Positions 2,034 through 48,308 of a DNA stretch of 64,000 nt are shown piece after piece. Both the position numbers and the translations under genes were made by a program. Source of the stretch: a virus. The stretch spans positions 1-64,000 of the IMG/VR virus record IMGVR_UViG_3300023178_000019. One strand, 5' to 3'. The notes under the pieces were generated by a model that was given only the letters and a program-made list of their open reading frames with translations, was not told the origin of the DNA and ran no database searches. Numbering within the stretch: the first letter of the stretch is position 1; each line of letters starts with the position of its first letter.

Positions 2034-2478
2034 GTTCTTCAGCCAATTGTTTGAGTTCTTTTTTTGTAGATAGTCTAGCAAGTAATTCTACCTCGTCTTG
2101 TTTCATATTCGGATATATTTCTTCTAATAATTTTATTGCTTTCGAATTAGATTCGGTTTTCTTTTTAAATCCAATGTATGGATGGAATTCTATTTTTCCA
2201 GTTGCTCCGCTCATGCACAATAGTTGCCACATCAGTTCTTGATGACCGGTTTCTTTGCCTACACCGATTGTATTAAAATGTTTGTTATAGTACTTATTTG
2301 TGTTTTCTATTGCACGTTCTTGTTTTTCTCTGTTGCCAGCAACATTACTAACGTATCTATTAAGTAACCAAAAGCCTACACTCTTTTTTTCTTCGTCAGT
2401 AAATTCTTTCCAGGCTCCTTTGTAGTTCATATCTATACAGCCAAGTATTTGTTTTAGATTAAGTTTTTCTTGTGCCAC
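2011..2478 (-). CDS. 62: Putative sliding-clamp loader small subunit (gp62-like)
   Basis: This is a 155-aa helical protein. A central FWLLNRYVSNV segment (about residues 36-46), a WQLLCMSG segment (about 83-90) and a C-terminal run ending in KKELKQLAEEH resemble the Phage_clamp_A family and the C-terminus of T4 gp62 (188 aa). gp62 joins the gp44 ATPase to load the gp45 clamp. Genes 44 and 45 are not in this window, so context is only partial support: it precedes the zinc-finger and PolIII-like genes. It overlaps kdsB upstream by 25 bases. The assignment rests on weak similarity. Confidence 0.45.
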   Translation of the reverse strand: MAQEKLNLKQILGCIDMNYKGAWKEFTDEEKKSVGFWLLNRYVSNVAGNREKQERAIENTNKYYNKHFNTIGVGKETGHQELMWQLLCMSGATGKIEFHPYIGFKKKTESNSKAIKLLEEIYPNMKQDEVELLARLSTKKELKQLAEEHDVDVKL

Positions 2479-3143
2479 TCTTCTGCATCCTCAGGTGTGT
2501 TTATCTCTGTACCATTAAATTGTACACTCAAACAGCCTATTTGCCAACCGTTTTTTAACCAACGCAATTGTTCTAATTGCTCAATTCTTTCCTCTTTAGG
2601 TATAGGCATATCTTGATAACATTGTAAAGCGTTTTTACTATATCCATAAACGCCTAAATGCCATTCGCCATACCCTGTCATACCTCTACCAAACCATAAT
2701 GCATTGTCTCCTGCACGTATCATTTTTACACTGCTAGGATCATCTTGCTTTGCTTCAGGCATATTAGTAAACACTGTGCTTACATTATAATGTTGTAAAC
2801 TAAAAATACATTTGTCTATCATTTCCTTTGTTACGTCTGGCATGTCACCTTGTACATTTATAAAATTATCGTACTCATCAAACTTACGACTAGCAATTGC
2901 TCCGGCACATCTTTCGGTACCGTTTTCATAATCATGTGAATCTATATAAATGCCTACACCAGATGCTTGTGCTGCCTGTGCAATAGTTTTGTTATCTGTT
3001 AGCACATAGGTATCATACCCTGTTGCTTTACAAGCTTCTGCTACTCGTTGTATCATAGGTTTATCCCCTAACATAGTCAGAGGCTTTCCTGGGTATCTTG
3101 TGCTGCCGTATCTAGCGGGAATAAGAATGGCTGATGATGTCAC
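2454..3143 (-). CDS. kdsB: CMP-Kdo synthetase (3-deoxy-manno-octulosonate cytidylyltransferase)
   Basis: KdsB transfers CMP from CTP to Kdo, the activated sugar of the LPS inner core. This 229-aa protein shows the family's N-terminal nucleotide loop (PARYGSTRYPGKPL, residues 9-22), then YENGTERCAGA and FINVQGDMPDV, the counterpart of the VNVQGDEP metal-binding motif. The aspartate after VQG is kept, while the usual GDEP reads GDMP. Length is slightly below the usual 245-250 aa. The start codon is GTG, fixed by a strong GAGGAGG six bases upstream. It overlaps kdsA by 32 bases, so the two Kdo genes are co-transcribed and probably translationally coupled. Confidence 0.88.
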   Translation of the reverse strand: MTSSAILIPARYGSTRYPGKPLTMLGDKPMIQRVAEACKATGYDTYVLTDNKTIAQAAQASGVGIYIDSHDYENGTERCAGAIASRKFDEYDNFINVQGDMPDVTKEMIDKCIFSLQHYNVSTVFTNMPEAKQDDPSSVKMIRAGDNALWFGRGMTGYGEWHLGVYGYSKNALQCYQDMPIPKEERIEQLEQLRWLKNGWQIGCLSVQFNGTEINTPEDAEEWHKKNLI

Positions 3144-3873
3144 GTACTACCTCCTCAAAGTTTTTTAACTTCAACATATTAGGCCCATCGCTTGGTGCAT
3201 TGTCTGGATCAGCATGTACTTCTAAAAAGAAGCTGTCGATGCCCAAAGCAGAAGCAGCACGAGTAAGACCTGGAACGAAATCGCGATTGCCTCCACTTGA
3301 AGTGCCGTTTCCACCCGGCTTCTGTACCGAGTGGGTAGCATCCAATACAATGGGAACGTTATAATTAGTGAGCATATAGTCAAGCCCAGTAAAATCAACA
3401 ACCAGGGTATTATAACCAAAACTTGTACCTCTCTCTGTTATCCATACTTCTTTAGCACCTTCTGTTTTACTTAGTATTCCTTTGACATCCCACGGTGCTA
3501 GGAACTGCCCTTTTTTAATATTTACAATACAGTTTGTTTTACAAGCGGCTTGTATTAAATCTGTTTGACGACATAAGAATGCAGGTATTTGTAAAACATC
3601 TACAATGTCTTTTAGATACTGTATTTGATCTACTTCATGTACATCTGTTAGTGCTTTTACATTTAGTTCGTCTTTTAGCGCAAGTATGTCATGCACAAAT
3701 GGGTGTAAGCCTACCCCACGTTTGCCTGTTACGCTTGTACGATTTGCTTTGTCAAAACTTGCTTTAAAGTAGTAATCAATTCCATACTTGTCGCACACAC
3801 GTTTACACTCACGTGCAATCTCTGCACTCTGTGCTAGTGTTTCGTGTTGGCAGGGTCCTGCAATAATTCTCAT
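3112..3873 (-). CDS. kdsA: Kdo-8-phosphate synthase
   Basis: KdsA condenses phosphoenolpyruvate and arabinose-5-phosphate to Kdo-8-phosphate in the cytosol. The 253-aa protein has AGPCQHE at residues 5-11, FDKANRTS, LTDVHE, FLCRQTDL, ITERGTSFGYN, DATHSVQKPGG and the C-terminal EVHADP, all family signatures. Cys8 in AGPC is the residue typical of the metal-dependent class II enzymes, rather than the Asn of the metal-independent class, so a metalloenzyme is likely. The ATG at 3873 overlaps the upstream stop as ATGA and follows GGAG by eight bases. No phosphatase KdsC or isomerase KdsD is seen, so host enzymes would complete the pathway. Confidence 0.9.
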   Translation of the reverse strand: MRIIAGPCQHETLAQSAEIARECKRVCDKYGIDYYFKASFDKANRTSVTGKRGVGLHPFVHDILALKDELNVKALTDVHEVDQIQYLKDIVDVLQIPAFLCRQTDLIQAACKTNCIVNIKKGQFLAPWDVKGILSKTEGAKEVWITERGTSFGYNTLVVDFTGLDYMLTNYNVPIVLDATHSVQKPGGNGTSSGGNRDFVPGLTRAASALGIDSFFLEVHADPDNAPSDGPNMLKLKNFEEVVRDIISHSYSR

Positions 3874-4583
3874 ATTATTCTCCAATTTTTAGGATTTGAC
3901 AAAGCTCGATTGTAACTGTTTATATTTTCTTTTTTAGTATACAACATGTCGCCCGCTACACAAAAGCGGCTTTGTTGCAATGATTCTTTATTTGTAAATG
4001 TTTTTCCTTCTTCATATTTGTCGCCTTGTCGTTCTTCAATACAATGTTTTAACTTAGACGGAAATATAAAAAGAGAACCTTCTGTTATAGGAAATGAAAT
4101 AATATTACTGTTTATAGACGTCCATTCAGTAATATAGTTACTAAAAAAATGTGCATAAGGTTCGTTAGCATGAGCTTCATTAAAATTATAAATCATAATA
4201 TCTCTATCTTTTCCGTTAGCAATAAAAGGATAATAGGTAAAAGAAATATGATTTTCGGAATGGTCGTGAACATCAATACCACTCTGATTAGTAACATTAA
4301 AAAAGCACTTAGTTAGATGTACATCAAGGGTGTCTGCATTTATATTAAGACATTTAAAATATTCATTGATACTAATTTTTAATTTGTTCATTAATAGATC
4401 ATTAAATATTGTTTCATTTTGTATATTTTCAAATCCAATAAAGTCTTGAGACCTACCTTCATTGTTAGAATTTTTTAAGTATAAATCAAACCAACAGTCT
4501 TTTTCCTTATCTGTAACAGTGTGTAATGTTTCAGATACTACAGTAGGAAATATTAAATGATTATTTACAATCAATTGTTTCAT
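3870..4583 (-). CDS. 2OG-Fe(II) oxygenase-like protein
   Basis: This 237-aa protein fits the phage 2-oxoglutarate/iron oxygenase family (PF13759-like). A histidine pair in GIDVHDHSENH (H106, H108) is followed by a barrel strand (ISFTYYPF), a distal histidine in LKHCIE (H180) and an arginine in QSRFCVA (R206) suited to 2-oxoglutarate binding. The substrate is unknown; relatives hydroxylate proteins, sugars or small molecules. The gene is coupled to kdsA downstream by an ATGA overlap and to the small gene upstream by four bases, placing it in the Kdo operon. A sugar or LPS-related substrate is possible but not shown. Confidence 0.65.
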   Translation of the reverse strand: MKQLIVNNHLIFPTVVSETLHTVTDKEKDCWFDLYLKNSNNEGRSQDFIGFENIQNETIFNDLLMNKLKISINEYFKCLNINADTLDVHLTKCFFNVTNQSGIDVHDHSENHISFTYYPFIANGKDRDIMIYNFNEAHANEPYAHFFSNYITEWTSINSNIISFPITEGSLFIFPSKLKHCIEERQGDKYEEGKTFTNKESLQQSRFCVAGDMLYTKKENINSYNRALSNPKNWRII

Positions 4584-4849
4584 TTACTTTCTTTCGCAAT
4601 ATAATACATCGTAACTAGTTTATCCAGTTGATTTTTTAGTGTAGGATTTGTTGCAGCAACTTCGCACAAATTTATCCATTCACCATAGTCTATTAGCTTA
4701 CCTTGAGCTTTAGCAACGGCAGCCGGATCCCCGCCTACTATCCAGCGAGGTATCTCGGGCTTGTCGCGATAATGAGCGTATACAACACCGTTGCTACGCT
4801 CATATATCAGTGCTTCACCGGGGATTAAATTACCCTTTGGCAGTGTCAT
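4580..4849 (-). CDS. Conserved small phage protein, 89 aa
   Basis: The protein starts MTLPKGNLIPGEALIYERSN and contains PRWIVGGDPAAV at about residues 34-45. I recall close relatives as conserved hypothetical proteins of marine T4-like phages. Function is unknown; the N-terminal half looks beta-rich and the C-terminal half helical, with no membrane segment. It overlaps the transporter gene upstream by 20 bases and the oxygenase gene downstream by four, so it belongs to the same operon. Confidence 0.7.
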   Translation of the reverse strand: MTLPKGNLIPGEALIYERSNGVVYAHYRDKPEIPRWIVGGDPAAVAKAQGKLIDYGEWINLCEVAATNPTLKNQLDKLVTMYYIAKESK

Positions 4850-5486
4850 TTAACTTACCTTTTAGGTAGTTAAGTAATATACCGTATGCCGGTAGGAACA
4901 CAATTAAGCCAACTACAATCTTAGTCAGTGTGTTGTTCTGTGCAACAATGTGCCAGTTCTCACCAATCCAAGTTAAGTTGCCTTCTGCGTCTGTTGAACC
5001 TGCAAATGCCACATAAAAGAATGAATATGTGTCAATGATGTTGGCTGCAATAGTTGAAATTGCTGGCGCTGCCCACCATGCATTTGAACGTTCACGGATT
5101 GCTTGGAAAACATATACATCAAGCATTGTACCAATAGCATATGCAGTACCACTTGCAAATCCTACTCTGTATGCATGTTCATCACCTAGTGCTAATAATA
5201 CTAGCACTGAAGCAATAATAGCAGGAATAATAGCCATTGCTACTACTGCACGACCTGCTTCTTTACCAACCATACGTACTGTTAGGTCAGTTGCTACAAC
5301 AACGATTGGAAACGTAAACGCTGCCGCCGCTAAAGGGAATGATCCAAACAAGGGCAAATCCGCACCTGGAAATAAATCAAACCTAATTGTAACCAAATAA
5401 TTACTTACTGCAATTACTAGTGTGTGTAAGATTACAAGATTTCTAACTAGAGTCTTGTCTACACCGTCTAATAGTTTTGTAAACAT
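4830..5486 (-). CDS. yhhQ: VUT/YhhQ-family queuosine-precursor transporter
   Basis: This 218-aa integral membrane protein has about six hydrophobic segments and the family pattern of the QPTR/YhhQ (Vut_1) transporters. Visible landmarks are SNYLVTIRFDLF near the N-terminus, FTFPIVVVATDLTVRMVGKE (about residues 58-77), GTAYAIGTMLDVYVFQAIRE in the middle and NIIDTYSFFYVAFAG. Family members import preQ0/preQ1 across the inner membrane for queuosine tRNA modification; some phages carry them to feed 7-deazaguanine DNA modification. No other queuosine gene is visible here. The start has AAAGGAAAG upstream. It overlaps the next gene by 20 bases. The family call is firm; the exact substrate is inferred. 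Confidence 0.85.
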   Translation of the reverse strand: MFTKLLDGVDKTLVRNLVILHTLVIAVSNYLVTIRFDLFPGADLPLFGSFPLAAAAFTFPIVVVATDLTVRMVGKEAGRAVVAMAIIPAIIASVLVLLALGDEHAYRVGFASGTAYAIGTMLDVYVFQAIRERSNAWWAAPAISTIAANIIDTYSFFYVAFAGSTDAEGNLTWIGENWHIVAQNNTLTKIVVGLIVFLPAYGILLNYLKGKLNDTAKG

Positions 5487-5487
5487 T

Positions 5488-5859
5488 TTACTTCTTTCCT
5501 TTTGTTACTTCGGTGCCAACTGTTCGACGAACAATATCGTCATGATTAAATTCAGCCCAGTATAGTTCAAAAGCGACACCATCTTCTAAACCTTCAAACT
5601 GGTGAATTTTTCCGGGTTTTACTTGTGTAAAGTCACCCGCTTCAAGAATGGTTTCATCAACCAAACCTTCTTGATCTGCATCTTGCCAAACACGAACAAG
5701 CATCTTGCCCGATTCAACAAAGAATCCGTTCCACTTAAATCTGTGTTCGTGTTCTGAACACTTATAACCTGCATTAAACTCAATACGGTGAAATTCTAGT
5801 ACACCGTTTGCGTGTATAAGTTCTGTATTACCCCAGATCTTTCCTGCTTTAATTCCCAT
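5488..5859 (-). CDS. Single-domain cupin protein
   Basis: This 123-aa small beta-barrel protein has cupin motif 1 (GYKCSEHEHRFKWNGFFVES), with the HEH metal pair, and cupin motif 2 (LEAGDFTQVKPGKIHQFEG), with a conserved GKIHQF histidine. Sugar-nucleotide epimerase and isomerase cupins look like this, but the substrate cannot be read. I chose the ATG at 5859 (MGIKAGKIWG) because TTGGAGA lies eight bases upstream; a longer start at 5895 has none. The gene overlaps the upstream oxygenase gene by 11 bases and lies one base before the transporter gene. Confidence 0.75.
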   Translation of the reverse strand: MGIKAGKIWGNTELIHANGVLEFHRIEFNAGYKCSEHEHRFKWNGFFVESGKMLVRVWQDADQEGLVDETILEAGDFTQVKPGKIHQFEGLEDGVAFELYWAEFNHDDIVRRTVGTEVTKGKK

Positions 5860-6439
5860 TGTTTTCTCCAAAATAATTAAACCATCCTGTAACAATATAC
5901 TTGGTTTCTGTAGAGGAAGGAACTCCTCTATGTGTAAAGGTCCAGTCAGCTGGCCATATTAATGTCAAACCTTTTTCAGGTTTAACTTTTATTTTTTGAT
6001 GAAAGAATTCAGTTTCTCCTCCATCAGTTATATCATTTAAGTACGTCATGAATACCATATGTCTTGTACTAATTTGATATTCAACTCCGCTGCGTTCTGT
6101 ATGCCACTTGTGATATCCTTGAGACGGTTTATATTCTTGTATATTAATGTTATCATTAATTCCCCAAGGACTATAAAAATTTACAAAAGGATAAAGGTTA
6201 ATATATTCTGAAGCAACATCCATTAGTTGAGTTACATATAAATTTGCTAACTGTGCATCTTGCAGATAGCAATCAGTACTATCCTTTACCGTAGCATCTA
6301 CACCATTAGACGAACGTCCTAAAAATTTATTGTTGTTATTTTTAAAATAGTCTATAATTTGATCACATGTATCTAAGTTGTCTAAATACCAACCTCGTAT
6401 AAAATCATTATTATTATGTGTTTGACTATGTACTTGCAT
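5849..6439 (-). CDS. Prolyl-4-hydroxylase-like 2OG-Fe(II) oxygenase
   Basis: The protein has 196 aa. The double-stranded beta-helix motifs are clear: YHKWHTERS gives H113-T-E115, then MTYLNDITDGGETEF (about residues 131-145), H170 in TFTHRG and K180 before a YIVTGWF strand. The order H-x-E...H...K matches the prolyl-hydroxylase type, with Glu in place of the more common Asp as iron ligand. Phage members of this group are common and of unknown target. It starts directly at the end of the upstream conserved gene (one-base overlap). Regulation is through the shared minus-strand operon. Confidence 0.75.
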   Translation of the reverse strand: MQVHSQTHNNNDFIRGWYLDNLDTCDQIIDYFKNNNNKFLGRSSNGVDATVKDSTDCYLQDAQLANLYVTQLMDVASEYINLYPFVNFYSPWGINDNINIQEYKPSQGYHKWHTERSGVEYQISTRHMVFMTYLNDITDGGETEFFHQKIKVKPEKGLTLIWPADWTFTHRGVPSSTETKYIVTGWFNYFGENNGN

Positions 6440-28093: not shown

Positions 28094-28529
28094 GCCTGCG
28101 GCCTCCTTGGTGAAACATATCGCCTTCGTTTATAATTCTAAAAATTATTCCCTTTTGTTTACACCATGCTCTTGCTGATTCCCATTTTGCTTGATTAATA
28201 ACATAATGAGCTTGGTTAGCTCTACTACGACCTAGTTTTTCTCTTACGGTTTGGTTTGATGGCTTAACTTCTATTAATTCGACTCGTTGTTTACCATTTT
28301 TGTCTGCATATACAATAAAAAAGTCTGGAACATAAATTGTATGTTTTCCTGTTAATGGATTTCTATATGGTATGCGTATCGCTTCCGAAGCCCATTGACT
28401 AACACTTGGATGTGCATCACAAAACTTCATAAATGTAAATTCCCAACTACTTCTATAAGTTGGTGTTTTATTACCTACATATTTTTCAGGGTTTTGTGGT
28501 GTAAATTTTCCTTGTGCAAACTTAGCCAT
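28089..28529 (-). CDS. 4: Head completion protein gp4
   Basis: gp4 closes the packaged T4 head and has a nuclease-like fold. This 146-aa protein (T4: 150) begins MAKFAQGKFTPQNPEKYVGN and has TYRSSWEFTFMKFCDAHPSV (about residues 24-43), IPYRNPLTGKHTIYVPDFF (about 53-71) and VELIEVKPSNQT (about 82-93). The PDFF and E-x-K elements match the TnsA/restriction-endonuclease-like core kept in this family. It overlaps the subtilase gene upstream by eight bases. Confidence 0.92.
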   Translation of the reverse strand: MAKFAQGKFTPQNPEKYVGNKTPTYRSSWEFTFMKFCDAHPSVSQWASEAIRIPYRNPLTGKHTIYVPDFFIVYADKNGKQRVELIEVKPSNQTVREKLGRSRANQAHYVINQAKWESARAWCKQKGIIFRIINEGDMFHQGGRRR

Positions 28530-30528
28530 TTCTTCTCAACTGCAATCCATTCTTAAACACAAAACTACCTCTTACACTAAGTGTTTTTTCTAGAGGAGTT
28601 GTGATTGGTATATTAGCATTGTATATAACCCTAGCAGGGCCACCATTCAAGCTATTTAGATCCGACCATGCTGTGTCTTCTGGACCGGTTGGATCACTAC
28701 CTATATAGAAATTAGTTGACGATTGTGTTTGTACTTCGGATTGTATCCAACTACGTAAGTCTTCGTAAGTCCAATTTCTATTATATTGAATTACAGTTGA
28801 TAAAAATCCTGCTGCTACTGGACATGCTGCTGATGTTCCACCGAATCGAGTATCTCTACAATCCTGTGTTCCTAAGTCAGTATAATTATCGTCTAGTCTT
28901 GCTGTATCTACACCGTATGTACCTACTGTAGCTGCTAGTGTGCCATCTGCTGGAGCATAAAAATCTATAGCATTACCCATATCACTGTAATTGACTTTTT
29001 GTTCTTTACTCGATGGTATTAGATCATCTAATGCGCCGATGTTTATACCTGGAAACTTAACTGTAGTGTTTCCTTGAAAGGTAAGACTTTCTGTCTTACC
29101 TATATGTTGAGGGAATCCTCGTCTGTTAGTAGTTCCAGTTACTGCAAACCCAAAACTAAACCAAGCATTGTCGTATACTCCTTCATTGGTATTGTCTCCG
29201 ATATGATTGTCGTAATTAGGATGGTCTGGGTTTACTTGTTGCTGATTACTATTGCCTGCGGCACAAACATATATAACACCTTCGTCAACTAATTCTTTAG
29301 CTGCTTGTGTCATTGAATTATCATACATTTCAGACTTCCAACGTCCGCCGTCGCCGGCTGATCCTAAATATCTTATAAATTCTGGTTCGGTAGTATATGC
29401 AACTGCTGGATCATTTCTCCAAAAATAATAACTAGCCGATTTATCAACTCTAAATCCCCAACTATTAGAACTTATTGTAGGATCTTTTGTTCCATATTTA
29501 GGATTAATAGGTTTATACTTGTGAAATATTTTTTGTATATCAAATCCTACATCCCAGTCTACTCTGCCGCCGCCGATATGATTAAGATGCCACTTGTTAG
29601 CATTATATGCCCAACCTTGAGTTCTACCATATGTTAAACCTGCACATTGGGTTCCATGAGTTCCAGATGCAGTAGTAGGATATGAATTATTGTTACCGTT
29701 ATTACCTGTACGAGTATATAGGTTTTCTATTTGTATTGATCCAAATTCTGCAAACTGCGGAGAACGTTGATTTGTTTGTTCCCACCATGCTCGTGCTGCT
29801 GTTTCGGTTGGAACAATAGTGCCGTCCCAACGAGTTTCTAATCTAGTTGGATCAGCATCAAACCATTCTGGATCAATATAGTACGGAGAATCAAATACAA
29901 TATCGAGTAAATCACAGTAGCCATTTCCAGGCAATACATTTCCGCCTTTATAATTTACAGGATTAACAGCATTTGTAACTCCTCTGTTAATAAATTCTAC
30001 ATGACCAAACCAACATCCGTTATCGCAAACAATAACATCAACATCTTCTCCTGCACCGTGTGTAGGTATAGCACTATCTATAATAGTGCTATCGTTATTA
30101 CCATTTTGTAACCACGGACTGACTTTTTCTGTTAGTCTTAATAACTGACTGGTATTTCTATTTAATGCGTTAGTATTAAAATTTCCATTACCGTACCATA
30201 TTTGAGCGTTTTCGTATGCTTGTTCATAACGTTGATATATTGTTGGATTTTCAAAAAGTAAGTCGTCTTCTGGAACATTATACAAATCTTTGTTATGTTT
30301 AAAATCTAAATTAATAAATTGTATTCTTGAATCGTTTTTTAATAATTCTGCTTCTTCATCAGTTAATAAAAATATTCCTCTAGTTGGACTATGTTCTACA
30401 TGATCTGTACACTCAACTTCTCTTACCGGAATAGCTTCTATTGAAGATCCAGGATTACACAATTCATTGTGTACTTCATTAAATTGCTCTGCTGTATGTG
30501 TTCCTATAGCATAATAGTTTTCTGACAT
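28522..30528 (-). CDS. Subtilisin-like serine peptidase (S8) in the virion gene block
   Basis: This 668-aa protein has the complete S8 triad: D169 in VIVCDNGCW, H291 in GTHGTQCAG, S566 in GGTSAACPVAAG, with the oxyanion N426 in CAAGNSN. Residues 1-140 are a separate N-terminal region that could be a prodomain; no signal peptide is seen, so it is not a secreted host-type protease. The region after residue 600 ends in TPLEKTLSVRGSFVFKNGLQLRRNG. The place between a tail-fibre gene and gene 4 suggests that it is packaged or processes virion or fibre proteins. T4's own prohead protease (gp21) is an unrelated family. Confidence 0.9.
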   Translation of the reverse strand: MSENYYAIGTHTAEQFNEVHNELCNPGSSIEAIPVREVECTDHVEHSPTRGIFLLTDEEAELLKNDSRIQFINLDFKHNKDLYNVPEDDLLFENPTIYQRYEQAYENAQIWYGNGNFNTNALNRNTSQLLRLTEKVSPWLQNGNNDSTIIDSAIPTHGAGEDVDVIVCDNGCWFGHVEFINRGVTNAVNPVNYKGGNVLPGNGYCDLLDIVFDSPYYIDPEWFDADPTRLETRWDGTIVPTETAARAWWEQTNQRSPQFAEFGSIQIENLYTRTGNNGNNNSYPTTASGTHGTQCAGLTYGRTQGWAYNANKWHLNHIGGGRVDWDVGFDIQKIFHKYKPINPKYGTKDPTISSNSWGFRVDKSASYYFWRNDPAVAYTTEPEFIRYLGSAGDGGRWKSEMYDNSMTQAAKELVDEGVIYVCAAGNSNQQQVNPDHPNYDNHIGDNTNEGVYDNAWFSFGFAVTGTTNRRGFPQHIGKTESLTFQGNTTVKFPGINIGALDDLIPSSKEQKVNYSDMGNAIDFYAPADGTLAATVGTYGVDTARLDDNYTDLGTQDCRDTRFGGTSAACPVAAGFLSTVIQYNRNWTYEDLRSWIQSEVQTQSSTNFYIGSDPTGPEDTAWSDLNSLNGGPARVIYNANIPITTPLEKTLSVRGSFVFKNGLQLRRNG

Positions 30529-42905: not shown

Positions 42906-44048
42906 ATGTCTAAAGTATTAGTTATTGGTGATTTAATAAATGATAGGTATATTTTTGGTTCTTCGACTAGGTTAAGTCCTGAAGCACCTGTACCTATTGT
43001 AAGTCAGGATCGTATAGAAGAATTTCTTGGTGGCGCAGGACTTGTTTATAACAACTTAAAAAGTTTAGGCGTCGATGCAACTTTATTAGAATACGACGAT
43101 CCAAAAAGTGAAAAAACTCGTGTAATCTGTGATGGCCATTATGTTACAAGAATAGACGACGATCGTTATGCTAACGGATTAGATATTTACAATGATATTA
43201 AAAAATTAGATTTATCTAATTTTGAATATGTTATTCTTAGCGATTACAATAAAGGTGTATTAGAATATTCAAAAGATATTATTGCACATCTTAATAGTTT
43301 TGATTGTAAAGTTATTGTAGATCCTAAACGCCACGTTAGTTGTTATGACGGGGCTTGGTTAGTAAAACCTAATTACAAAGAATACAAAGAATTAGGGTTT
43401 GAAAAATGGGACGGTAATATAATTGTCACTAATTCTAGTAAAACTACTACTGCTGAATTTGATTTAAAACGTTATGTTTCGCAACCTGAACCTTTAGAAG
43501 TTAATGATGTAACCGGAGCCGGAGATTGTTTTCTTGCTGCATTTGTTTATGCGCTAACTAAAGGGTATGATTATCAAAAAGCATTAGATTTAGCAAATAG
43601 AGGATCAACTGAAAGTGTAAAACACGTAGGTACATATATTCTTACTGAAAAAGACTTGAATAAACGTATTGTTTTTACTAACGGATGTTTTGATGTATTG
43701 CACAAAGGTCATCTTACATTACTAAAAGAAGCTCGCAGTTTAGGTGATAAACTTGTAGTAGGACTGAATAGTGACGGTAGTGTAAAACGCTTAAAGGGAG
43801 ACAACAGACCGTTTAACGATCTTGAAACAAGACGAGAACAATTAGAACTTATTCCGTATGTAGACGAAGTTATTGTATTTCATGAAGATACGCCATATGA
43901 GCTTATTAAAGAACTAAAGCCAGACTTAATTGTTAAAGGTGGAGACTATACTGTAGAAGAAATTGTAGGACATGATTTAGCACCTGTGCATATTGTACCT
44001 ACAGTACAAGGTTACAGTACAACAAAAATTTTAGAGGCGTCTGTATGA
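42906..44048 (+). CDS. hldE: Bifunctional heptose-7-phosphate kinase/heptose-1-phosphate adenylyltransferase
   Basis: HldE phosphorylates D-glycero-D-manno-heptose-7-phosphate and later adenylates heptose-1-phosphate to ADP-heptose. Residues 1-245 are a PfkB/ribokinase-type kinase: GDLINDRYIFGSSTRLSPEA at the start, an FLGGAGLVYNN segment and DVTGAGDCF (201-209) with catalytic Asp in GAGD. Residues 253-380 are the nucleotidyltransferase: FTNGCFDVLHKGHL (257-270) and IVKGGDYTVEEIVG. E. coli HldE is 477 aa, so the kinase half is compact. hldD overlaps the end by four bases. Together with hldD and gmhB this covers all steps after GmhA. Confidence 0.92.
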   Translation: MSKVLVIGDLINDRYIFGSSTRLSPEAPVPIVSQDRIEEFLGGAGLVYNNLKSLGVDATLLEYDDPKSEKTRVICDGHYVTRIDDDRYANGLDIYNDIKKLDLSNFEYVILSDYNKGVLEYSKDIIAHLNSFDCKVIVDPKRHVSCYDGAWLVKPNYKEYKELGFEKWDGNIIVTNSSKTTTAEFDLKRYVSQPEPLEVNDVTGAGDCFLAAFVYALTKGYDYQKALDLANRGSTESVKHVGTYILTEKDLNKRIVFTNGCFDVLHKGHLTLLKEARSLGDKLVVGLNSDGSVKRLKGDNRPFNDLETRREQLELIPYVDEVIVFHEDTPYELIKELKPDLIVKGGDYTVEEIVGHDLAPVHIVPTVQGYSTTKILEASV

Positions 44049-44863
44049 AAATTTTAATTACTGGACACAAAGGATTTATTGGACAAAATCTAACTCTTAG
44101 ATTACAAGACGAACACGAGCTATCAGGATATGAATGGCAAGCTGATTATTTGCCTGAAGTTGAAGGCTATGATTGGGTTATTCATTTAGGTGCTATTTCA
44201 AGCACAGCTGAACGTAATGTTGATAAGATCATGTTACAAAATTATGAATTTTCAAAATGGTTGTTTAATCAATGTAATCTAAAAGGTGTAAATTTTCAAT
44301 ATGCATCTAGTGCAAGTGTATATGGACCATACGAAAAGTTTAAAGAAGAAGATCCAAAACAACCACAAAGTCCGTATGCTTGGAGCAAGTATCTTTTTGA
44401 TAGATGGGTTACTGGACTCTCAAAAAGAAACATTATAGTTCAAGGATTTAGATATTTTAATGTATACGGTCCTTTAGAAGACCACAAAGGACATCAAGCA
44501 AGTCCTATAACTAAATTTACTAATCAAGCAAAAGAAACTGGTACTATTTCTTTATTTGAAAACAGCGACAAATACAAAAGAGATTTTATTTTTGTAGGCG
44601 ATGTATGTGAAGCACATAAAAAATTATTATCTAGTGATGTTTCCGACATTTATAATATAGGAACAGGAACTACTACAAGTTTTCAACAAATAGCAGACAT
44701 TATTGCTAAAAAATATGATGCAAAAATTAAATATGTACCGATGCCGGATCATTTAGCAAATCAATATCAAGAGTACACATGTGCAGACAATTCAAAATTA
44801 AGTAATATTGTAAAAATTAATTTTACAACAGTAGAGGAATATATAAATGGATCAGCCAACTAG
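44045..44863 (+). CDS. hldD: ADP-L-glycero-D-manno-heptose 6-epimerase
   Basis: HldD inverts C6 of ADP-D,D-heptose to give the LPS donor ADP-L,D-heptose. This 272-aa protein (E. coli: 310) is a short-chain dehydrogenase/epimerase: GHKGFIGQN nucleotide loop (7-15), VIHLGAISSTAER (about 55-67), YASSASVYGP, the Y-x3-K pair in SPYAWSKYLFD, and FRYFNVYGPLEDHKGHQASP with the heptose-epimerase HKG...S pattern. Four-base overlap with hldE upstream and 17-base overlap with the cupin gene downstream make it part of one tight operon. Confidence 0.9.
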   Translation: MKILITGHKGFIGQNLTLRLQDEHELSGYEWQADYLPEVEGYDWVIHLGAISSTAERNVDKIMLQNYEFSKWLFNQCNLKGVNFQYASSASVYGPYEKFKEEDPKQPQSPYAWSKYLFDRWVTGLSKRNIIVQGFRYFNVYGPLEDHKGHQASPITKFTNQAKETGTISLFENSDKYKRDFIFVGDVCEAHKKLLSSDVSDIYNIGTGTTTSFQQIADIIAKKYDAKIKYVPMPDHLANQYQEYTCADNSKLSNIVKINFTTVEEYINGSAN

Positions 44864-45233
44864 AAAGTCAGGTGTAGATCAAAAAGGTTGGGGCTACGAA
44901 ATGATTTGGGCCACAAATGATTTATACTGCGGAAAAATTATGGTGTTTACTAGAGCTGGAGCAAAAACTAGTATGCACTTTCATAAAGAAAAAGACGAAA
45001 CTTGGTTTGTAAACAACGGCAAATTTAAGGTTGCATACATTGATACAAAAAATTCAAAACTACATGAAAAAGAACTTAATGAAGGCGAAGTTTGGAGGAA
45101 TCCTCCATTACAGCCACATCAATTAATTTGTCTTTCGAAAGAAGGAAGTGTTACAGAAGTTAGCACTCCAGATAGTGTTGAAGACAACTATAGAATTATT
45201 CCCGGCGACAGTCAAGTATTAAGCGAAGAATAA
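44847..45233 (+). CDS. Cupin protein in the heptose cassette
   Basis: In this 128-aa protein, the cupin signatures GAKTSMHFHKEKDETWFVNN (about residues 38-57) and LNEGEVWRNPPLQPHQLICL (about 77-96) show HFH...E and a second histidine in PHQL, as in type II mannose-6-phosphate isomerase cupins. In this cassette it might isomerise or sequester a heptose intermediate; GmhA, the missing sedoheptulose isomerase, is a different fold, so it is not an obvious replacement. Function is inference. Confidence 0.75.
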   Translation: MDQPTRKSGVDQKGWGYEMIWATNDLYCGKIMVFTRAGAKTSMHFHKEKDETWFVNNGKFKVAYIDTKNSKLHEKELNEGEVWRNPPLQPHQLICLSKEGSVTEVSTPDSVEDNYRIIPGDSQVLSEE

Positions 45234-45234
45234 A

Positions 45235-45933
45235 ATGTATAGCATAAACTGGAGCAATAAAAAATCAGACAACACTGTATCCGATAAAAAAGAATCTGCG
45301 ATTCGATACAGTACAGATAAAACAGAAGAAGAATATAATATTCCATTCTACGATACTGTGAATAATATTGCACCAAAAGTTGTTGTAGGTTTAGATAGAG
45401 ACGGTGTTATTAATGTTGATCGTGGAGACTATACCTACAAGGTAGACGACTTTGAACCGATCGAAGGTAGTTTAAAAGCAATAGCTAAAATTCGTAGACT
45501 AGGTCATAAAATTGTTATTATAACAAATCAAGGCGGTATAAGTAAAGGCATTTATACTCAAAACGATGTTGACACTGTACATAATCATATGTTTAATTTA
45601 TTAGGTGAAGCAGGCTGTGCAAGTATAGATGCTCTTTATTATAGCGAAACTAGTGCTAGATGGGACCAGTATGCAAAACCTAATACCGGTATGTTTAAAA
45701 GATGTGAAAAAGAATTTCCTTTTATTAAATTTTCAAAAGGATTTTATGTAGGCGATAAAATATCAGATCTAAAAGCTGCTTTTAAAATGGGAGCAAAGCC
45801 TGTACTAGTAAAAACAGGCTACGGAAATGAAACGTTAAAAGAACTTAACAAGTTTTCTAATCAAAAAATTAAAAAGAAAACTATTGTTTTTGATAATTTA
45901 TCTAGCTTTGCTGATTGGTTATCTCGTCGATAG
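45235..45933 (+). CDS. gmhB: Heptose-1,7-bisphosphate 7-phosphatase-like HAD protein
   Basis: GmhB removes the 7-phosphate from heptose bisphosphate. This 232-aa protein has the HAD motifs VGLDRDGVINVDRG (D54/D56), VIITNQGGISKGIY and FYVGDKISDLKAAF. Residues 1-48 are an extra N-terminal segment. The Cys/His zinc loop of many GmhB proteins is missing: where it would be, the sequence reads YYSETSARWDQYAKPNTGMF. Histidinol-phosphatase is a less likely alternative. It ends by overlapping the convergent 2OG-oxygenase gene by 32 bases. Confidence 0.85.
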   Translation: MYSINWSNKKSDNTVSDKKESAIRYSTDKTEEEYNIPFYDTVNNIAPKVVVGLDRDGVINVDRGDYTYKVDDFEPIEGSLKAIAKIRRLGHKIVIITNQGGISKGIYTQNDVDTVHNHMFNLLGEAGCASIDALYYSETSARWDQYAKPNTGMFKRCEKEFPFIKFSKGFYVGDKISDLKAAFKMGAKPVLVKTGYGNETLKELNKFSNQKIKKKTIVFDNLSSFADWLSRR

Positions 45934-46525
45934 CTATTCCAAAATTTGCACTAATAGTGGATCTTAATTCATCAGCCTTGTGTGTTGATACATAATGATC
46001 TAAACTAGCAGGAAAGAAAATAATATCCCCTTCTTCTAGCGGCGGCGTAACTCTTCTTCCCATAAACGGTTTGTTTGTAAAGCATTGTGCAAGATGTACC
46101 GGAAAATGACTGTAACTAGAATCATAAAAAGAAAAACTTGCACTGTTTGGTGGTAACTTTAACATATATGCACAGCTAATTACTAAATTTCCACCACTAT
46201 GGGAATGTACTTCTTGGTATTGTCCTTTTGTATATCTATTTGCCCATGCTTGTCCGTACATTTTTTCACATGCTTCTTGTGACAATCCTATAGAATATGC
46301 ATATTCGTCTACTAAATTATAAACAGTTTTAAAAAACAAATGCCAAGGAAATAAACTATTTTTTTCATCATTTTGAATTGTTGTTCTACAGTCACAATCC
46401 CAAAATGTTGCTTGATCAAAATTATCTTCAGACTCAATAAAAGGAGTAAATCCTTTTAAAATTTCTTCGTGATTAGGCATTTTTGTTTTATATACAGGTG
46501 TGCCAAAAATTACATTAAGACTCAT
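45902..46525 (-). CDS. 2OG-Fe(II) oxygenase-like protein
   Basis: The protein has 207 aa. YTKGQYQEVHSHSGGNLVIS (about residues 98-117) carries the first iron histidines (H-S-H), GDIIFFPASLDHYVSTHKA (about 163-181) the distal histidine, and ELRSTISANFGI the arginine for 2-oxoglutarate. This is the same general family as the protein at 3870-4583. Its gene overlaps the carbamoyltransferase gene upstream by 11 bases, so it may hydroxylate the same sugar or acceptor. The exact substrate is unknown. Confidence 0.7.
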   Translation of the reverse strand: MSLNVIFGTPVYKTKMPNHEEILKGFTPFIESEDNFDQATFWDCDCRTTIQNDEKNSLFPWHLFFKTVYNLVDEYAYSIGLSQEACEKMYGQAWANRYTKGQYQEVHSHSGGNLVISCAYMLKLPPNSASFSFYDSSYSHFPVHLAQCFTNKPFMGRRVTPPLEEGDIIFFPASLDHYVSTHKADELRSTISANFGIAIDEITNQQS

Positions 46526-48308
46526 TTTTTACCTTTACTAACTTTTTCTTTTCTGGCAAATACAAATATTCAATTTTACTTTTTGCTAGTGTATGGAATG
46601 CATCTTCTAAAGTTTCAACTAGAGGATCGCCGCCTAAATTAAAACTTGTATTAAAAATAATCGGACAACCTGTCTTTTCTTTAAAGGCTTTAATCAAATC
46701 ATAGTAGTTTGCATTTTGTTCTCTGTTAACAGTTTGAATACGGCAAGTTCCGTCTACGTGAATAATAGCAGGAATCTTTTCTTCTACTCCGGGCTGACAA
46801 TTAACAGCATACATCATTGTAGGAGAGTTTTTCATACCTCGCAAGTCAAACCATTCATGCACATCTTCTTCTAGAATAGATCCTGCAAATGGGCGGAAAT
46901 ATTCTCTGTTTTTAACACGATTTACAAAATCTTTTCCGTCAGGATCTGTTGGATCATAAAGAATACTTCTATTACCTAATGCACGTGGGCCGTTTTCACT
47001 ACGTCCTTGAAATATTGTAACAATATTTTTGTTTGTAATTAAGTCGATAACATCTTCATTAGTAGCATCTGTAACTTCGGCAGAGTATTTTTTTGCTAGT
47101 TGTTGGATATCACCTTCTGTAATTTTATAATCTGGTCCTAGATAAACAGTTTCAGCTTGAGAATCAATCGACATATCTTTAGTAAGACTTCTATGTAACC
47201 ACAATGCTGCACCCATTGCAGTGCCGCCGTCATTTGAAACCGGCTCTACATAAAGATTAATATCATTGTCTATCTCTTTTAAATAATGATAATTTGCAAC
47301 ACAATTCAACCCATATCCACCGCTTATAACAACATTTTTAATTCCTGTAGATTCAACAGCATGTTTTATTAGTTGAGTTACCGCTGCTTGAGATTCTACT
47401 TGTACTGCATATGCCATATCTCTTCTATTTTGGCATAGTGTTGCATCTTCTTCACCTTTGTCAATCAAATAACTATATAAATTTTCGTTTAGAATAGAAC
47501 CGTTTGGATATCTCGGAACAAATAAACTTCTATTACTTACTGGAATAGGCAAATCAGTATATGGATCAAATACCGGAGGAATTAAATCATTAGGTTTACC
47601 ATATGGAAATAATCCCATAGTTTTTCCAGCTTCAATGGCATCCCAGCCACAGTATTCTGTTACACCCTCATAACACTTAACAATGCCTGCTCTATCAGAT
47701 AACGAAGTTGAAAATTTACCTATTTCTTTACCAAAAATATCTTGATCAGGTGCTGTAAGTTCTGCTGTTGGCAGATAGTCTCTACAACCCATAGTTTTAA
47801 AAAGAGTTTGTATATTGTCTGGATATGTACATTTATATAATGTTTCAGTTTCCCACATATGTTTTATAGATCCGTCAACTTCTAAATCAAAACAAGTCCC
47901 AGCACCGTCAACAATAACTGCTACTGCTTCTTCAAAGCCACTTCTATAAAATGCTAAACTGGCATGCATTTTATGATGTAGTTTAGATACATCGATTACT
48001 TGTGGATGCGGATCCCAAGGCGGAGAATACTCTATTAGACCTACTTTTCTAGCAAGACCTGTGTAAATATCCTCAGCAGTATAATCAACTCTACCAGCTG
48101 TTTCTGCAAGAGTTTGTGTATGCGATATTACCATGTAATCAAGTTTGTCTGTATACTCTAAAATTTTTAGAATTGACGCTAACGGTCCTCCATCGTACTT
48201 TTTACGAGTAAGTCTTTCTTCTTCAATAGAAAAAACTATTTCTCCATCTTTTAATAAGCATACTCCAGCATTGTGTCCTCTAGCAAGTCCTGCTATCCAC
48301 ATACTCAT
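46515..48308 (-). CDS. NodU/TobZ-type O-carbamoyltransferase
   Basis: This family forms carbamoyl-adenylate from carbamoyl phosphate and ATP and transfers the carbamoyl group to a hydroxyl, often of a sugar. The 597-aa protein has a Kae1-like domain (GLARGHNAGVCLLKDGEIVF; KLHHKMHASLAFYRSGFEEA with the metal histidines; VVISGGYGLNCVANYHYLKE) and the C-terminal carbamoyltransferase domain (FQGRSENGPRALGNRSIL; IIFNTSFNLGGDPLVE). Full length and motifs suggest activity. Overlaps: ATGA with the GT9-like gene upstream, 11 bases with the oxygenase downstream. A heptose residue is a plausible acceptor. Confidence 0.9.
   Translation of the reverse strand: MSMWIAGLARGHNAGVCLLKDGEIVFSIEEERLTRKKYDGGPLASILKILEYTDKLDYMVISHTQTLAETAGRVDYTAEDIYTGLARKVGLIEYSPPWDPHPQVIDVSKLHHKMHASLAFYRSGFEEAVAVIVDGAGTCFDLEVDGSIKHMWETETLYKCTYPDNIQTLFKTMGCRDYLPTAELTAPDQDIFGKEIGKFSTSLSDRAGIVKCYEGVTEYCGWDAIEAGKTMGLFPYGKPNDLIPPVFDPYTDLPIPVSNRSLFVPRYPNGSILNENLYSYLIDKGEEDATLCQNRRDMAYAVQVESQAAVTQLIKHAVESTGIKNVVISGGYGLNCVANYHYLKEIDNDINLYVEPVSNDGGTAMGAALWLHRSLTKDMSIDSQAETVYLGPDYKITEGDIQQLAKKYSAEVTDATNEDVIDLITNKNIVTIFQGRSENGPRALGNRSILYDPTDPDGKDFVNRVKNREYFRPFAGSILEEDVHEWFDLRGMKNSPTMMYAVNCQPGVEEKIPAIIHVDGTCRIQTVNREQNANYYDLIKAFKEKTGCPIIFNTSFNLGGDPLVETLEDAFHTLAKSKIEYLYLPEKKKLVKVKNES

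Follow-up and report, generated by a model that had tools for sequence, protein, structure and literature searches.

A highly conserved VUT/COG1738 transporter gene of large marine phages and its putative link to 7-deazaguanine-based DNA modification

Introduction

In Escherichia coli, the COG1738 protein YhhQ performs the salvage of preQ0 and preQ1 and serves the formation of queuosine in tRNA; the COG1738 family is heterogeneous, and other purines are possible substrates of its members (PMC5372724). Phage-borne YhhQ genes accompanied by a deazaguanine pathway are already known (PMC6884629), and the archaeal viruses HCTV-1 and HCTV-16 encode YhhQ together with a preQ0/G+ pathway (PMC8651126). 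Where a viral YhhQ accompanies the preQ0/G+ pathway, a role in supplying or recovering bases for exchange in phage DNA has been inferred (PMC6884629, PMC8651126).

The locus studied here lies in a window of 64,000 nucleotides, which corresponds to positions 1 to 64,000 of the IMG/VR record IMGVR_UViG_3300023178_000019 and is part of a record of 98,563 bases classed as linear. A preliminary description of this window reported a VUT/YhhQ-type transporter gene and regarded it as an unusual phage gene; given the cultured phages compared below and the published cases (PMC6884629; PMC8651126), a phage-borne YhhQ is less unusual than was claimed. What appears to be new is the combination, in a widespread jumbo-phage lineage, of a QueC-less set of deazaguanine genes with a divergent protein of predicted TGT/DpdA fold, and a transporter gene that relocates while being highly conserved.

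Results

The transporter gene and its family

The transporter gene and its neighbours in the window are the following:
2454-3143, minus strand: KdsB, Kdo synthesis
3112-3885, minus strand: KdsA, Kdo synthesis
4580-4849, minus strand: open reading frame of 89 amino acids, overlapping the 3' end of the VUT gene by 20 nt
4830-5486, minus strand: VUT/COG1738 transporter gene, ATG start, 218 amino acids, intact
5488-5895, minus strand: cupin (Cupin_2, Pfam), directly 5' of the VUT gene
5849-6439: 2OG-Fe(II) oxygenase

The gene product belongs to the VUT/COG1738 family and is predicted to be a transporter of the inner membrane. It matches PF02592 (Vut_1) with E=5.9e-20 and 72.6 bits against a cut-off of 27.2, as well as TIGR00697 (queuosine precursor transporter) with 94.3 bits against a cut-off of 50.95, and its PHROG assignment is phrog_4899. 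The family call of the preliminary description is therefore confirmed, but the 151.7 bits obtained with NF008406 (YhhQ equivalog) stay below the cut-off of 252, and by this rule the protein is a VUT/COG1738 member and no YhhQ orthologue. In an alignment of the window VUT with Salmonella YhhQ, the VUTs of three cultured phages and three bacterial homologues, it keeps the motifs common to bacterial, cultured-phage and marine-phage members, while the marine VUTs differ from the other aligned members in marine-specific loops. No close bacterial relative was found by a pattern scan, and the bacterial matches in 274 genomes of one class had 38-45% identity. The Kdo, cupin and oxygenase neighbours named earlier were also recovered. 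KdsA and KdsB (2454-3885) occur as well in G001, the nearest large relative, and were not found in G002-G006. Elsewhere in the window, a second sugar-related cluster (42906-48308) encodes a PfkB-type kinase, an NAD-dependent epimerase, a cupin and a carbamoyltransferase, and positions 28522-30528 on the minus strand, amid structural genes, encode a protein of 668 aa that has a subtilase (Peptidase_S8) domain.

Conservation and selection

When the window record was compared with G002-G006, VUT was the best conserved of the proteins aligned over at least 70%, with 87-92% identity, these relatives having been picked by VUT similarity, which favours a high identity and inflates the contrast with other proteins (capsid protein, 79% in G002; terminase, 61% in G003). 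The VUT of locus L178, found through the c11 protein described below instead of VUT similarity, is 68% identical. In the same comparison with G002-G006, the four-fold sites of VUT are 33-54% identical, against 30-44% for the other genes pooled; being only slightly above those of the other shared genes, they led us to reject the view that recent transfer by itself explains the conservation. These data point to strong purifying selection on VUT. Since relatives are encoded in many viral contigs and synonymous change far exceeds amino-acid change, the sequence comparisons indicate that 4830-5486 is a real gene under selection.

Relatives and gene contexts

When viral contigs were scanned with the window protein, 277 IMG/VR stretches were found to encode relatives, the best 80 of which have 84-100% protein identity. 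These 80 and the window make up the 81 loci sorted into gene contexts:
Context A (window type), 39 loci: UvsW, cupin, VUT, often with the 89-aa reading frame and KdsA-KdsB
Context B, 17 loci: a glycosyltransferase-like gene, and FolE, which in most cases adjoins VUT directly on its 5' side
Context C, 17 loci: order FolE, IMPDH-type, PRTase, VUT, cupin, QueE
Context D, 8 loci: others

The cupin is close to VUT in 55 of the 81 loci (contexts A and C) and is a possible functional partner. The 89-aa reading frame, without a match in Pfam or PHROGs, comes after VUT in 31 loci (contexts A and D). On the VUT tree, in which many forks within the marine clade are poorly supported and two bacterial rows translated in wrong frames (bacL165 and bacL168) were disregarded, 12 context changes are needed against a minimum possible of 3, so that the gene has moved repeatedly among contexts.

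In context C, the PRTase (for example L026:10241-10735, plus strand) and the IMPDH/GMP-reductase-type gene (L029:7250-8320, plus strand) adjoin FolE and VUT, and their products could recycle guanine freed by base exchange. At some loci VUT or QueE is adjoined by cluster 44 (L054:11181-12197, plus strand), whose protein of 338 aa resembles an amidinotransferase by eye and had only a weak match, to phrog_25854.

Deazaguanine genes in the relatives

FolE (phrog_2197) was found in 15 of the 23 VUT-bearing IMG/VR records searched, fragments included, and canonical QueD in G001, G003 and G012. A further family, cluster 14, is QueE-like (phrog_2076, E=1e-51). A profile search gave no credible match to QueC in the 23 IMG/VR records, although the same profile detects QueC in phage 2.275.O and in 14 of 14 control genomes; the matches in G001 (15 bits) and G002 (12 bits) cover short stretches and were judged to be chance. 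The minimal preQ0 set (FolE, QueD, QueE, QueC; Hutinet 2019) is thus incomplete in the relatives. For QueF, nothing in the relatives rose above the profile cut-off, and two weak candidates in G018 and G003 (13-15 bits) were set aside, being located inside FolE genes. With neither QueC nor QueF found, no recognised enzyme of these phages makes or uses preQ0, the known substrate of YhhQ, and the substrate of VUT may not be preQ0. Five stretches compared with Rfam gave no match at the gathering threshold, and hence no known preQ1 riboswitch.

A second protein of the set, c10, seems to have the fold of QueD: the top 26 PDB matches of its model are all QueD/PTPS, an assignment coming solely from this fold search of a predicted model, since only one weak match (2hfq, E 0.052) came from a profile search against the sequences of the PDB and the hhalign comparison with canonical QueD was not significant. 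In a rough alignment c10 is without the Cys and His that stand in the active site of canonical QueD. Canonical QueD stands alongside a c10-type protein, close to FolE and QueE, in phages ACP17 and phiST. Since canonical QueD is present in these two phages and in the relatives, c10 is less likely to be QueD itself than a second enzyme in a route without QueC. A CDG decarboxylase was reportedly proposed, and phage DNA with plain 7-deazaguanine reportedly described, by Cui et al. in 2023; we take as a lead that c10 may correspond to this decarboxylase.

A divergent protein of predicted TGT/DpdA fold

The c11 protein (cluster 11), of about 483 aa and without Pfam or PHROG match, was recognised by reading the motifs of the cluster, which include GDSGG, and by a fold search of its model. 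The AlphaFold2 model (pLDDT 85.5) matched with E<1e-3 only seven TGT entries and the DNA preQ0 insertase DpdA (7ui4) in the PDB, with modest TM-scores to TGT of 0.36-0.42 over the query, and no PDB sequence was matched in a profile search. The model thus suggests a TGT/DpdA fold for c11. Two residues, D108 (motif GDSGG) and D289 (motif FD(S/C)A), do not vary among 17 sequences; by these motifs and general knowledge of the family, they are candidate counterparts of the two catalytic aspartates of TGT. No Cys cluster like the zinc site of TGT was seen in c11. As a route to DpdA or TGT in the records, PF01702 and phrog_887 yielded nothing usable, an 11-bit match in G007 being judged chance.

The c11 gene (for example L042:712-2163, plus strand; further loci L171-L250) was found in 14 of the 23 VUT-bearing IMG/VR records searched, fragments included, and at least 596 IMG/VR stretches encode a member of the family. 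In 80 c11 loci taken from these, many of them short so that the counts are lower bounds, c10 is present in 72, FolE in 39 and QueE in 30, and VUT lies within the flanks of only 6. The deazaguanine block is therefore widespread, with VUT as an accessory of a subset. Other partners of the block in the same 80 loci are cluster 31 (78 loci), sliding-clamp-like by eye, and c21 (75 loci). A group-1-type glycosyltransferase, cluster 6 (L034:4191-5357, plus strand), lies inside the block in 62 of them and could glycosylate the modified base, or be unrelated.

The window record and the position of the block

Six-frame searches of the whole 98.5-kb record gave no TGT, phrog_887 DpdA, QueC, FolE, QueD/PTPS, c11 or QueF, a profile built from the QueE proteins of the relatives gave no match, and no tRNA gene was found on it. 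Among the genes that the preliminary description had singled out as informative (dpdA, queC, folE and tgt-like genes), none was thus found on the record, while FolE and the TGT/DpdA-like c11 do occur in relatives and QueC was found in neither.

The capsid protein of the record has its best matches in T4-like jumbo phages, with 71% identity to Vibrio phage 2.275.O and Sinorhizobium phage Phosso and an identity of about 68% to Serratia BF, Pectobacterium CBB and Cronobacter GAP32. The terminases of the record and of PA5oct share 54.5% identity. Since the genomes of these matched phages have about 287-470 kb, the record is probably half of its genome or less.

The nearest large relative, G001 (236,751 b), has a cupin-VUT-KdsA-KdsB context like that of the window and a VUT 93% identical to it, and carries these genes at the following positions:
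55.8 kb: VUT
158839: canonical QueD
216108-217703: c11
219004: c10
223850: FolE
224515: QueE

The window record matches the structural region of the larger relatives, and its collinearity with G001 is confined to roughly the first 62 kb of the latter. The G001 block lies at 216-225 kb, and its counterpart would therefore fall outside the window record. The earlier statement that the window holds no other deazaguanine gene is accordingly true, but it reflects the fragment, the block of the relatives lying outside the shared part.

In other lineages VUT is inside the deazaguanine block and often touches FolE; of the 17 context-B loci, 15 have FolE either overlapping VUT or at most 75 nt away on its 5' side. 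In locus L018, which is of the window type (UvsW, cupin, 89-aa reading frame, KdsA, KdsB), the FolE gene has a 13-nt overlap with VUT, and its product shares 88-90% identity with the FolE proteins of context B, as if the FolE-VUT pair had moved together. In three cultured phages, too, VUT stands beside deazaguanine genes.

Discussion

Taken together, these data make it probable, in our opinion, that the VUT of the window serves a modification of phage DNA by base exchange, with a putative substrate of the 7-deazaguanine type. FolE, QueD and QueE would lead from GTP to 7-carboxy-7-deazaguanine (CDG), c10 as a QueD-fold paralogue would act on an intermediate of the QueC-less route, and c11 would swap guanine in the phage DNA for the modified base. 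VUT would import or recover a 7-deazaguanine-type base, giving a larger pool, and the remaining genes of the system would probably be in the part of the genome missing from the 98.5-kb record. Between the two roles named in the preliminary description, modification of tRNA or of phage DNA, the second is favoured, since relatives with a near-identical VUT encode FolE, QueE, QueD-fold and TGT/DpdA-fold proteins and often have VUT inside this block. Several points stand against a role in DNA modification: no partner gene was found on the window's own record, QueC and QueF were not found either, the TM-scores of c11 with TGT are modest, and the block occurs without VUT in most phages, as in PA5oct, which gave no VUT match, and in the flanks of all but 6 of the 80 c11 loci. 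A more specific version, in which the base carried by the marine VUT clade differs from preQ0 (it could be 7-deazaguanine, the carboxy form of the latter, or the guanine that the exchange sets free) and serves a QueC-less DNA modification with a new transglycosylase subfamily, in a large and mostly uncultured jumbo-phage lineage, is possible and is advanced here tentatively.

A function in tRNA queuosine, where VUT would import preQ0, preQ1 or queuine during infection so that host or phage tRNAs with a GUN anticodon keep their modification and translation remains efficient, is the role of E. coli YhhQ (PMC5372724) and was proposed by Hutinet et al. for DpdA-less phages with preQ0-pathway genes (PMC6884629). 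The tRNAs of G003 include tRNA-Asn(GUU) and tRNA-Asp(GUC), both Q substrates, but none of the 11 tRNAs of G001 has a GUN anticodon and no tRNA gene was found on the window record; with QueF not found in the relatives, and with the VUT-linked c11 unrecognised by PF01702, the tRNA-TGT model, we regard this function as rather unlikely. The order FolE, IMPDH-type, PRTase, VUT of context C would suit a salvage of purines, in which VUT moves guanine or an ordinary purine and works with the PRTase and the IMPDH/GMP-reductase-type enzyme in guanine recycling or nucleotide synthesis, and the heterogeneity of COG1738, which may carry other purines (PMC5372724), together with the score of the window VUT below the YhhQ equivalog cut-off, is in agreement with it. 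Such a salvage is plausible and could be combined with DNA modification by recycling the guanine freed in the exchange, but as an explanation of its own it appears quite unlikely, the recurrent direct neighbour of VUT across contexts being FolE, as in the pair of L018, and the PRTase and IMPDH genes not being found near VUT in context A. It is very improbable that VUT in window-type phages is a cargo gene, unlinked from deazaguanine metabolism and doing an unrelated job amid the Kdo and oxygenase genes: the relocations among at least four contexts and the position apart from the block in window-type genomes would fit, whereas G001, itself of the window type, retains both VUT and the block, and an identity of 87-93% in spite of far-diverged synonymous sites shows that constraint is not relaxed.

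With DNA modification as the preferred role of VUT, a gene that looked odd and alone points to a DNA-modification system that probably exists in an abundant group of aquatic phages. As the c11 type is unseen by Pfam and PHROGs and occurs in at least 596 viral stretches, many "hypothetical" genes of jumbo phages may encode base-exchange enzymes. The question is also raised why a QueC-less pathway keeps a transporter of the preQ0 family better conserved than the capsid protein.

Comparison with known systems

The window VUT shares its family and motifs with E. coli YhhQ, as reflected by the TIGR00697 score, and is 39% identical to Salmonella YhhQ. The closest parallels for a viral VUT with 7-deazaguanine genes are Pantoea phage Vid5, the Providencia phages PSTCR4/7 and Vibrio phage 2.275.O, where VUT lies inside a preQ0/G+ cluster. 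Their VUTs are only 34-36% identical to that of the window, they have QueC or Gat-QueC whereas the marine relatives are without QueC, and, unlike them, the window-type genomes keep VUT away from the block.

For the enzymes, the parallels are found in other phages. Cellulophaga phage phiST and Acidovorax phage ACP17 have a homologue of c10 grouped with FolE, canonical QueD and QueE, the set also carried by G001, with no QueC annotated in the stretch of these two phages; unlike G001, they gave no match to VUT or to c11. The transglycosylase of ACP17 may be gp123 or gp124 (L254:4698-6997, plus strand), two hypothetical proteins with genes located between those for FolE and for the c10 homologue. 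Pseudomonas phage PA5oct (Arenbergviridae), which gave no VUT match and has no FolE annotated in the stretch read, carries homologues of c11 (40% identity) and c10 (60%) and an annotated QueE, besides the related terminase. The carrier of the window VUT is a large marine virus of bacteria in which a base-swap strategy known in other phages would be assembled differently.
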